Shown: one piece after another, positions 2,913 to 53,724 of the stretch
How positions within the stretch are numbered: the stretch's first letter is position 1
How the letters are laid out: each line of letters begins with the position of its first letter
NCBI GenBank assembly: GCA_018831195.1
Contig: JAHJDP010000065.1
Coordinates: forward strand, 62,001-126,000
From: Candidatus Eisenbacteria bacterium
GTDB lineage: Bacteria; Eisenbacteria; RBG-16-71-46; CAIMUX01; JAHJDP01
Direction of reading: 5' to 3'
Length of the DNA stretch: 64,000 bases
Notes under the pieces: generated by a model
Database searches by the model: none
What the model was told of the DNA's origin: nothing
The model's input: the letters and a program-made list of their open reading frames with translations, nothing else
Made by a program: the position numbers and the translations under genes

Positions 2913-5735
2913 ATGAAGCCGTTCAAAATATTCAAGATCCTGGGTCTTTTGGGTGTTGTCTATTTTGCCGGCTTTGCAGTAACCGGTATTCGGCTTGAGC
3001 CCGATGCGCAGGCGCAGGAGCTCGCTGTTGAGGAAGACAATTATTGTTTTGAGTGCCACAATGATCCGACATTTCTTTCTGATAATGAAATCGGCATATC
3101 GCTGTACGTCGATCCGCAATCGTACAGCCATTCGATCCATGCCGGGAATGGATGCGTCTCATGCCATCAAGATGTCGATCCGGAGGATCTTCCGCATGAA
3201 TCGGGGCTGGAACCCGTCGACTGCGGTGGTTGCCATGATGGTGTAGCCAAGATCTACGCCGCCAGCTCTCATGGTATGGCGCATGCGCAGGGTGATCCGG
3301 ATGCTCCCCTTTGCAGCGATTGCCATGGCAAGCATGATATCCGCTCTTCAGATGATCCATCATCAATCACTAATATCTCACAAATACCAAGAATGTGCGG
3401 ATCCTGCCACCGGGAAGATACTGACATGGTTACCCGGCATGATATCGATCAATCGAATGTCATCCAAAATTACTCAATGTCGATTCACGGGGAAGGCCTT
3501 TTTGTGCGCGGTTTGACAGTGACTGCAGTTTGTACAAGTTGTCATACGGCGCACAATGTCCTGCCTCATGAGAACCCCGCGTCGACGATCAACCGTAAGA
3601 ATATCGCCGCGACCTGTATGAAATGCCACGGGCGTATCGAGGATGTTCATCTCAAAGTCATTCGCGGGGAATTGTGGGAAAAGGAGCCACACGTCATTCC
3701 CTCCTGTGTTGAATGCCATTCTCCCCATGATATCCGGCGTGTGGTCTATGAAGACGCGCTTAATGATGGTTATTGCATGGGTTGTCACGGGAGCCACGAT
3801 CTTGTGCGCACCCGCGAAGGCCGAACGGATACGCTTTTTGTCGACACTTCCGAAATTCTGATTTCGGCCCACGGGCCGCATACACCCTGCGTGCGGTGTC
3901 ATGTCGGGGTCGATATCCGCCTGAATCCCGTCTGTAAAGACTCCGGTCCTGTGGACTGTTCGATCTGCCACGCGAAGGAGGTCGAGAGCCACTCAAAGAG
4001 TATTCATGGCCGGCTCAAGGCCGAAGGTGATCCCAATGCGCCCGGCTGCACTGATTGTCATGGAGAACATAAGATTCTCCCCAAGGAGAATCTCGATTCC
4101 CCCATATTCGCACGGAATATTCCGCAACTTTGCGCCAATTGCCACCGGGAAGGACAGAAGGCCGCGGCCCGGCTTCACGCTTCACAGACTGAGGTTGTTG
4201 AACATTATAACATGTCCATTCATGGAAAGGGTTTGAATGAGAGTGGATTGATGGTCACGGCAATGTGCACCTCCTGTCACACGGCGCATGACATCTATCC
4301 CGCAAAAGATCCCGCGTCATCGGTAAATGCCACCAATATCGCGAAGACCTGCGCCAAATGCCACCTGGGCATCTATGAGCAGTTTAAGAAGTCCATTCAC
4401 AGCCCGGAGGTCTCGCATACAGATAAAAGACTGCCGGTATGTTACGACTGCCACCAATCCCATACGATTGAGCGAGTGGATGGAGAGGATTTTCGGCAGA
4501 TTATTACCACCCAATGCGGCCAATGCCATGAGGAGGTTACCGAAAGCTATTTCGAAACCTATCATGGCAAGGTGTCCAAGCTCGGGTATGCTTCGACGGC
4601 GAAATGTTCTGATTGTCACGGGTCCCACAATATTCTTCCCCCTGATGATGTCAAATCAACATTGAGCCGGGCCAATGCCGTGGCGACCTGCGCGAAATGC
4701 CACCCCGAATCGAATCGTAAGTTCACCGGCTACCTGACCCACGCGACGCACCATGACAAGGCGAAATACCCGCTGTTGCACGGCACCTTCTGGTTCATGA
4801 CGATTCTCCTGGTGGGCACCCTCGGATTTTTCGGCATTCATACCTTGCTCTGGATACCCCGTTCTTTCCGTGAACGCCGGCGTCTCAATCGGCAGAAAAG
4901 ATCCGGGCCTGAACAACAGATCCTGAGGTTTGAAATCTTCCCACGTGTCCTGCACATTATCGTGATCATCAGCTTTATCGGTCTCGCTATGACCGGCATG
5001 ATTCTCAAATTCGCCAATCAAACATGGGCGTCGGGGCTGGCCAGGTTTCTGGGAGGATTCGAATCGACGGGAGCGATCCATCGCTTTTGTGCGGTTTTGA
5101 CCTTCGCCTACTTCCTGCTCCATTTCGTTCACCTACATCGTAAAAAGAAGGAATCGGGCCTGTCCGCCTGGAAATTCATTTTCGGTTCCGGAAGCCTCTT
5201 GCCGAATAAAACAGACCTGAAGGAATTCTGGCAAACGACCCTGTGGTTTATCGGTTTGGCCAAGCGGCCGCGTTACGGTCGTTGGACCTATTGGGAGAAG
5301 TTTGATTATCTTGCCGTTTTTTGGGGCGTCGCCATGATCGGCTTCACGGGACTTATGCTGTGGTTTCCTGAATTTTTCACCAGGTTCCTTCCCGGACGCT
5401 TTATCAATGTGGCAACGATCATTCATAGCGACGAGGCTCTTTTGGCCACCGGTTTTATCTTTTCTGTACACTTTTTCAACACTCATTTCCGGCCGGAGAA
5501 ATTTCCCATGGATCCGGTCATCTTCACGGGCGTCGTCTCTTTGGAGGAGCTGAAAAATGACCGTCCGCGGGAATATGAAGAGCTCGTTGAAAGCCGGAGA
5601 CTAAAGACATTGGAAGTGCCGGAGCCACCGCGGTGGCTCCGCATAGCCGCCAGGGTTTTCGGGTTTTCAGCCCTTGCTTTCGGGCTTGCCCTGATCGGTT
5701 TGATCATCTGGTCTATGTTGTTCCAGTATCGCTAA
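2913..5735 (+). CDS. giant 19-haem cytochrome c fused to a b561-type membrane domain
   Basis: A 940-residue protein with an N-terminal signal or anchor (residues 5-25), then about 600 periplasmic residues with 19 CxxCH motifs. From about residue 623 six hydrophobic segments follow, with histidines in HRFCAVLTFAYFLLHFVH and LATGFIFSVHFFNTH that resemble the haem b ligands of cytochrome b561/FdnI-like subunits. The haem region contains an internal duplication: the pattern SIHG-GL, VTA-CTSCHTAH, P-PAS, NIA-TC-KCH appears near residues 190-250 and again near 430-490. Known b561 domains exchange electrons with quinones, so this fusion could by itself connect the quinone pool to a long haem wire. 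Its redox direction and terminal acceptor cannot be read from the sequence. Confidence 0.88.
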   Translation: MKPFKIFKILGLLGVVYFAGFAVTGIRLEPDAQAQELAVEEDNYCFECHNDPTFLSDNEIGISLYVDPQSYSHSIHAGNGCVSCHQDVDPEDLPHESGLEPVDCGGCHDGVAKIYAASSHGMAHAQGDPDAPLCSDCHGKHDIRSSDDPSSITNISQIPRMCGSCHREDTDMVTRHDIDQSNVIQNYSMSIHGEGLFVRGLTVTAVCTSCHTAHNVLPHENPASTINRKNIAATCMKCHGRIEDVHLKVIRGELWEKEPHVIPSCVECHSPHDIRRVVYEDALNDGYCMGCHGSHDLVRTREGRTDTLFVDTSEILISAHGPHTPCVRCHVGVDIRLNPVCKDSGPVDCSICHAKEVESHSKSIHGRLKAEGDPNAPGCTDCHGEHKILPKENLDSPIFARNIPQLCANCHREGQKAAARLHASQTEVVEHYNMSIHGKGLNESGLMVTAMCTSCHTAHDIYPAKDPASSVNATNIAKTCAKCHLGIYEQFKKSIHSPEVSHTDKRLPVCYDCHQSHTIERVDGEDFRQIITTQCGQCHEEVTESYFETYHGKVSKLGYASTAKCSDCHGSHNILPPDDVKSTLSRANAVATCAKCHPESNRKFTGYLTHATHHDKAKYPLLHGTFWFMTILLVGTLGFFGIHTLLWIPRSFRERRRLNRQKRSGPEQQILRFEIFPRVLHIIVIISFIGLAMTGMILKFANQTWASGLARFLGGFESTGAIHRFCAVLTFAYFLLHFVHLHRKKKESGLSAWKFIFGSGSLLPNKTDLKEFWQTTLWFIGLAKRPRYGRWTYWEKFDYLAVFWGVAMIGFTGLMLWFPEFFTRFLPGRFINVATIIHSDEALLATGFIFSVHFFNTHFRPEKFPMDPVIFTGVVSLEELKNDRPREYEELVESRRLKTLEVPEPPRWLRIAARVFGFSALAFGLALIGLIIWSMLFQYR

Positions 5736-51994: not shown

Positions 51995-52040
51995 TGGAGT
52001 GGCGAAAGACAAGCCATATTAAGCGGCAAGGAGGTTGATA

Positions 52041-52679
52041 GTGAGCAGCGACCCAACAGTCTTTGTTGTTGATGACGATCCTGATGTGCTCCGCTCCATC
52101 AAGTTTCTTGTAGAATCGGTGGGGCTTTCGGTGGAATGCTACAAGTCGGGCCAGGAGTTTATGGATGCCTACGAACCGGCACGATCGGGGTGCTTGATCT
52201 TGGATCTTCGGATGCCGGGTCTGAGCGGTCTTGATGTTCAGAAAAGACTCAACGAATTCAAGATTCAAATTCCGATTATCATCGTGACGGCGCATGGAGA
52301 GGTGGAAACAGCTGTCCGCTCAATGCGGGAAGGGGCCTTCGACTTTATAAATAAGCCCTACAGCAAGCAGCTGCTGCTGGATCGCATCCAGCAGGCATTA
52401 ACAAAAGATCGAGAGGCCCGGAGAAACTCGGCGTTGTTGGATGAGCTGTCAAATCTTGTCGCCCAGCTCTCCGTTCGGGAGAGACAGGTGATGGAGATGG
52501 TGGCCCATGGGAAATCCAACAAGGATATCGCCGGAGCGCTGGGCATCAGCCCGAAAACCGTCGAATTCCACAGGGCGCGGCTGATGGAGAAACTCAAGGT
52601 CGGGTCTTTGGCCGAATTGGTGCGGCTGGCGGTAAAGATCGAGGGGTCGCCGGGTCCGAAGCGGGGATCAGGGGAGTGA
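52041..52679 (+). CDS. FixJ/NarL-type response regulator
   Basis: 212 residues from GTG 52041, because AAGGAGG (52028-52034) is spaced correctly; the TTG at 52035 adjoins that site. The receiver domain has the acidic pocket (VVDDDPD, residues 9-15), phospho-acceptor Asp55 (CLILDLRMPG), Thr in IIVTAHG and Lys in FINKPYSKQLL. The output is a LuxR-type helix-turn-helix (LSVRERQVMEMVAHGKSNKD, then KTVEFHRARLMEKL). It is the expected partner of the upstream PAS kinase and controls unknown promoters. Related FixJ proteins respond to oxygen limitation. Confidence 0.93.
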   Translation: MSSDPTVFVVDDDPDVLRSIKFLVESVGLSVECYKSGQEFMDAYEPARSGCLILDLRMPGLSGLDVQKRLNEFKIQIPIIIVTAHGEVETAVRSMREGAFDFINKPYSKQLLLDRIQQALTKDREARRNSALLDELSNLVAQLSVRERQVMEMVAHGKSNKDIAGALGISPKTVEFHRARLMEKLKVGSLAELVRLAVKIEGSPGPKRGSGE

Positions 52680-52789
52680 CGGTTTAGCAACGCCTTGCAT
52701 AGCAATGAGTTAAAGACCCCCGACGCGGGGACGTTCAGGCAACAAGCTCCACCCTTTCCAATAATCCAGAAAAATCGAAACATAGTTGC

Positions 52790-52818
52790 TTGACCTGGGG
52801 ATTTCCATTGGCTATGCT
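52790..52818 (+). promoter_or_regulatory. candidate sigma-70 promoter of the intergenic structured RNA
   Basis: TTGACC (52790-52795), a 17-base spacer and TATGCT (52813-52818) match consensus at 5/6 and 4/6 positions. Transcription would begin near 52825, at the edge of the nested hairpins. No coding start fits this promoter closely; the next gene begins about 350 bases later. Confidence 0.5.
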
Positions 52819-53063
52819 AGGGTTAATTCTAAAGATCGGCTCGCAGTCGCCGATGAAGACCCTAGCTGATATAGCGTTCGTTTTCGGTAAGGGGGAGGGG
52901 CGAATATAACGTCCCCACGATCGTTCCAGGGACAGCGGAGCGCTGTGGAAAGGCGCTCAAGGCGACAGTGAAACACGACCGCAGTGGACGTTAATTTCGC
53001 CCCAGTACCCCTTTCAAGAATCTCGCCGGCGGCGGGTTCCAGTTTGGATCCCGCATTCTTTTT
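52819..53063 (+). ncRNA. candidate structured non-coding RNA, class unknown
   Basis: The region contains nested complementary segments between a promoter and a terminator. A 5' hairpin has AGGGT (52819-52823) with ACCCT (52859-52863), enclosing ATCGGC (52835-52840) with GCCGAT (52849-52854). A long imperfect stem has AAGGGG (52889-52894) with CCCCTT (53008-53013), GGGGCGAA (52897-52904) with TTCGCCCC (52996-53003), and AACGTCC (52908-52914) with GGACGTT (52986-52992). At its tip ACAGCG-GAG-CGCTGT forms 52932-52946. The shape recalls rod-like RNAs such as 6S, but conserved bases of 6S, tmRNA, RNase P or SRP RNA were not recognised. It could instead be a palindromic repeat element. No protein frame covers it. 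Confidence 0.45.
53034..53063 (+). terminator. intrinsic terminator of the candidate RNA
   Basis: GGGTTCCA (53034-53041) pairs with TGGATCCC (53045-53052) with one mismatch and a GTT loop. CTTTTT follows at 53058-53063. It separates the structured region from the next sigma operon. Confidence 0.5.
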
Positions 53064-53089
53064 AATTGATCCCATCCACTCTTTATAAT
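53061..53089 (+). promoter_or_regulatory. candidate promoter of the second ECF sigma operon
   Basis: A perfect -10 box TATAAT (53084-53089) lies 86 bases before the GTG start. The best -35 at 17 bases is TTTAAT (53061-53066), only 3 of 6 matches and overlapping the U-tract of the preceding terminator. Confidence 0.4.
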
Positions 53090-53175
53090 CACTCCATCGC
53101 TTGGTTCTGTAGGTCCCAACGTTTTCATGCAACTATTTCTATTCCCGGCCTGTCACACAGGACAGGAAAGAGGTC

Positions 53176-53724
53176 GTGGAGAGTGGTGTGGAAGAACAGC
53201 GACTCATAGCGGATGTCATAGCCGGGGATGCTGCGGCCGAGCGGCGGTTGTACGATGCCCATGTCGATCGAGTCTTCCGCTTGGCCTACAGGATGGCCGG
53301 TGATGAACAACTGGCGGAGGATTTTACACAGGAGACCTTCCTGAAGGCTTTCCGTTACCTTCCCCGCTTTCAGGGTCGATCCGCACTCTCCACCTGGCTG
53401 CACGCGATAACGATGTCTGTTGTGATAAGCGGACTGCGCAGCAGGAAACGCCGCCAGGAACATGAGACGCCATATGAAGATATCGAAACAGCGGGAGCGC
53501 CGGGAGAGACGATCAATATGGAACTCAGAGTCCAACTCAAAAGTGCGATCGACGGCCTCTCCACCGCTCTCCGCGCCGTCTTTATTCTGCACGACATTGA
53601 GGGGTACAAGCATCGGGAAATTGTCGACATCCTCAGCATCCCTGAGGGCACCTCAAAAGCCCGGCTGTCTCGGGCCCATGAGACGTTGCGGAAGAATCTG
53701 AGCCCCTTGGGCCGCAACCCGTGA
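53176..53724 (+). CDS. ECF-type RNA polymerase sigma factor (second)
   Basis: 182 residues from GTG 53176 with AGGAAAGAGG just upstream. Region 2 (RLYDAHVDRVFRLAYRMAGD, AEDFTQETFLKAFRYLPRF) and region 4 (LSTALRAVFILHDIEGYKH, EIVDILSIPEGTSKARLSRA) are clear, and no region 3 is present. The membrane regulator gene begins a few bases after its stop, and two exported HEAT-like repeat genes follow. This is a conserved style of sigma operon in which the sigma factor is held by its neighbour. It is a different family member from the sigma at 46517. Confidence 0.93.
   Translation: MESGVEEQRLIADVIAGDAAAERRLYDAHVDRVFRLAYRMAGDEQLAEDFTQETFLKAFRYLPRFQGRSALSTWLHAITMSVVISGLRSRKRRQEHETPYEDIETAGAPGETINMELRVQLKSAIDGLSTALRAVFILHDIEGYKHREIVDILSIPEGTSKARLSRAHETLRKNLSPLGRNP

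Follow-up and report, generated by a model that had tools for sequence, protein, structure and literature searches.

A long, single-copy inverted repeat between fixJ and an ECF sigma operon in a Candidatus Eisenbacteria genome, outside known RNA families and with conflicting strand signals

The described systems closest to the element reported here are 6S RNA (RF00013), a long rod-like RNA; the lineage-specific intergenic small RNAs that combine a rod or hairpin with an intrinsic terminator; and the REP/BIME or MITE palindromes, in which a short unit occurs twice in intergenic DNA, as inverted and imperfect copies. The element resembles 6S RNA in its rod-like shape but has no match to that family: none was found for RF00013 up to E 10 in positions 52680-53180, and the 6S RNA of this genome was located at C28, with a score of 60 bits. 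With the lineage-specific small RNAs it shares its intergenic place, the lack of support for an open reading frame, promoter-like and terminator-like sites, and a stable fold; it differs from them in having no detected homologue and a better fold on the opposite strand, and in that its transcript is only putative. It has this inverted, imperfect duplication in common with the REP/BIME or MITE palindromes, but it is present in a single copy and no family members were found.

The window is the whole 64-kb stretch of DNA that was analysed. Within it, the non-coding element sits between fixJ (52035-52679) and an ECF sigma gene (53176-53724). A sequence-only reading had proposed for this gap a complete plus-strand unit of promoter, 5' hairpin, rod and terminator, with no gene. 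The lack of a gene holds, since the sole long frame in the gap, a 106-amino-acid minus-strand ORF running across the element, has no Pfam match, and its codon log-odds (-0.11; neighbouring genes, +0.28) indicate no coding signal. An 18-codon frame (about 52855-52911, MKTLADIAFVFGKGEGRI), read by eye as a candidate leader peptide, was dropped, as it is without a recognisable ribosome-binding site. Of the proposed unit, promoter string, rod and terminator were all found where stated, among the following features.

52790-52818, plus strand: sigma70-like promoter match TTGACC-17-TATGCT, 9/12
52835-52855, strand not assigned: small hairpin GATCGGC/GCCGAT, the sole piece of the proposed 5' hairpin inside a transcript from about 52825
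52889-53013: long imperfect inverted repeat of 125 bases, forming one hairpin of 46 pairs on the minus strand and a weaker rod on the plus strand
52897-52914, plus strand: left 18-nt arm GGGGCGAATATAACGTCC
52986-53003, plus strand: right 18-nt arm GGACGTTAATTTCGCCCC
53032-53063, plus strand: intrinsic-terminator-like hairpin GCGGG-T-TCC/GGA-T-CCCGC, followed by TTCTTTTT
53061-53089, plus strand: sigma70-like promoter match TTTAAT-17-TATAAT (TATAAT at 53084), facing the ECF operon right after the terminator
53129-53154, plus strand: ECF-type promoter motif GCAAC-N17-TGTC of the ECF operon, also preceding the homologous operon in five further genomes

On the minus strand the inverted repeat folds into an unbranched hairpin, its pairs comprising 29 G-C, 13 A-U and 4 G-U. 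The core of the rod is more stable than shuffled sequence on both strands, at -58.2 kcal/mol on the plus strand (z -3.8; 1 of 1500 shuffles) and -66.1 kcal/mol on the minus strand (z -6.2; 0 of 1500). The 251-nt plus-strand fold gave z -3.4, and refolding the plus-strand unit from 52825 gave z -2.7, with 4 of 500 shuffles equally good. The 18-nt arms are 89% complementary and stand 71 nt apart; their ungapped inverted-repeat score was reached in 18 of 3226 shuffled versions of the intergenic sequence, so that the original judgement of 'unlikely by chance' is justified for the rod and only modestly so for the ungapped arms alone. When the 64 kb were scanned in 140-nt segments on both strands (1393 of 1828 segments, taken in random order), the minus-strand hairpin was the most extreme, at -6.5 against -4.4 for the next best. 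Against a genome background of 459 kb (a 395-kb sample plus the window, 9% of the genome) it ranked fifth of 13,046 segments in composition-adjusted fold energy, the other top-ranked segments including a tRNA, strong terminators, and hairpins close to an integrase gene. The hairpin is therefore real, but of a recurring kind, with about five segments this strong or stronger per 9% of the genome. The fold of one sequence does not constitute evidence for a functional RNA structure (Rivas 2021, PMC8250186).

Comparison with known families supports the description of the element as a structured intergenic element outside them. Searched against Rfam 15 at the gathering threshold, on both strands, it gave no match, and extension to E 10 returned only two chance-level matches, of a plant microRNA model to the hairpin (E 4.7) and of an archaeal snoRNA model (E 9.5); the earlier impression, formed by eye, that no common RNA family is represented was thus borne out by covariance search, with no credible match to E 10. 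SRP RNA (RF00169) and RNase P RNA (RF00010) likewise had no match in the element, and both were located elsewhere in the genome. Inspection by eye disposed of an integron attC site, as the arms are without attC-type boxes, and of a retron, as the neighbouring genes include no reverse transcriptase. A recent survey of intergenic regions sought covariation for its candidates (PMC11109978). For the present element, covariance models were built from this single sequence, R1 from the plus-strand core and R2 from the minus-strand hairpin, and were run against 47 and 146 genomes respectively, each set including ten of the same order and no other of the same family. Only the element itself was found, that is, zero homologues in up to 145 other genomes, an absence that holds for fairly close homologues only, since a single-sequence model is weak for distant relatives.

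The genes on either side are conserved. The downstream set of ECF sigma, anti-sigma-like and HEAT-repeat genes recurs in five further MAGs (L071-L075), and the pair of kinase and fixJ genes in L063-L068; beside neither did model matching reveal a relative of the element. Nor does an equally strong hairpin occur at equivalent places near the fixJ or ECF homologues, except for an unrelated repeat array in L073, a Gemmatimonadaceae MAG, where inverted repeats (CTTTCAAGGACTCTGACCCCTTGAA) at 330-560 lie upstream of the ECF homologue and fold with z about -9. All six genomes (the window and L071-L075) carry the motif GCAAC-N17-TGTC ahead of the sigma gene, 47 nt before the predicted start codon in the window and 60-105 nt ahead of where the match begins in the others; it is absent elsewhere in the window and in the L071-L075 loci. 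The motif looks like an autoregulated ECF promoter and is likely to be one. Since both this motif and the TATAAT site lie beyond the terminator, the element is probably separate from the ECF operon.

The signals for strand conflict, promoter and terminator matches favouring plus and energy favouring minus. Promoter-like and terminator-like sites follow one another in consistent order on the plus strand only, and a scan of the minus strand gave no promoter match of at least 9/12 and no good terminator. The chance expectation per 800 bases, however, is 0.4 promoter-like and 0.7 terminator-like sites, and one of each was seen. The predicted minus-strand helix contains its four G-U pairs and lacks opposed A-C mismatches, a tally that is biased because the helix was picked for folding well; an arm alignment in which the two kinds of transition count equally shows five minus-strand wobbles against three plus-strand ones, so the strand is not readable from the fold. 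As to the proposed 5' hairpin, its inner part at 52835-52855 is present, but the outer stem shares bases with the -10 box through its arm 52816-52823 and is located before the expected start at about 52825, and would thus be absent from the transcript. The complete plus-strand unit as first proposed keeps its order of sites; with promoter and terminator matches at chance frequency and a stronger fold on the opposite strand, the case for it is only a weak one. It is a caution that a plausible one-strand layout of promoter, hairpin and terminator masked a stronger inverted repeat whose best reading is on the opposite strand.

The reading that we prefer, tentatively, is that of a lineage-specific, single-copy hairpin carried in a plus-strand non-coding transcript, whose transcription, strand and function we infer. 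The transcript would either begin at the promoter-like site at 52790, as a small RNA of about 240 nt, or form the 3' end of the message of histidine kinase and fixJ, and in both cases would stop at the terminator at 53032-53063. The rod might then serve stability or processing, or make up the body of a regulator that acts by base pairing, and the element would be independent of the ECF operon, whose promoters start no earlier than the terminator's end. This reading is favoured by a fold that beats shuffles (core z -3.8), by the absence of coding signal, by the consistent, plus-only order of sites, by the conserved ECF promoter downstream and by the single copy; it is disfavoured by the chance-level promoter and terminator, by the z of only -2.7 from 52825, by the better minus-strand fold and by the lack of conservation in 145 other genomes. 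If transcribed, the element would represent an orphan small RNA, flanked by two regulators, in a lineage that has received little study.

Nearly as likely as the plus-strand transcript is that the element is decayed palindromic DNA that does not at present function as RNA, for example what is left of a small mobile element, or a pair of inverted repeat units. Each arm can be seen as one copy, in opposite orientation to the other, of a unit resembling GTGG..ACGTTAwwTTCGCCCC..CCCCTT. The arms match best in their outer part and decay inward, and the 5:3 split of transitions between strands is as expected of neutral decay; the related genome L073 has an inverted-repeat array of its own, unrelated to this one, ahead of the same ECF gene. 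Copy number speaks against this view. Multiple genomic copies, such as a REP or MITE would have and which the sequence-only reading had named, as the sign of a mobile palindromic element, among the findings that would undo its proposal, were looked for and not seen: the element is single-copy in its own genome and its arms are unique there. With up to three mismatches allowed, the arm pattern has 36 sites in the genome against 66 for the control and is thus rarer than the control, and every site beyond the element carries at least two mismatches. With one mismatch allowed, it was overall no commoner than the control across 385 genomes. DNA searches of plasmids, phages and E. coli genomes gave no match to the element, and a search of 59 genomes yielded short matches only (about 16-34 nt), many of which fell on the GC-rich terminator region. 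No target-site duplication was seen by eye at the ends of the element. Ten isolated matches to single arms were noted in viral contigs.

An unlikely alternative to both is a structured RNA from the minus strand, in which the 46-pair hairpin would be transcribed in the direction opposite to fixJ and possibly end at the 52835-52855 hairpin followed by CTTTAGAATT. Its far better fold and its helix free of opposed A-C mismatches argue for it; the minus strand's want of a promoter match of 9/12 or better and of a good terminator, and the mere 5 to 3 excess of wobbles in the unbiased arm alignment, argue against. That the element represents a novel class of structured non-coding RNA with a narrow distribution, possibly this minus-strand hairpin and seen to date in a single family of uncultured bacteria, we consider improbable. 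A leader or attenuator of the ECF sigma operon, suggested by the position of the element directly upstream on the same strand, is most improbable, given that the operon's own promoter motif lies beyond the terminator and is kept in five genomes whose upstream regions are without the element, although some readthrough into the operon may occur.

Other hairpins were noted in passing. In L182 (C65:1-20000, on the contig of the window), at 1331-2380 and 3310-4308, two strong ones, one of them attC-like by eye, were seen near a tyrosine recombinase with Phage_integrase and Phage_int_SAM_4 domains that resembles an integron integrase; and a strong hairpin at 240-280 of the window, GAAGACGGCCTCCTC/GAGGGGGCCGTCTTC, is probably a terminator.
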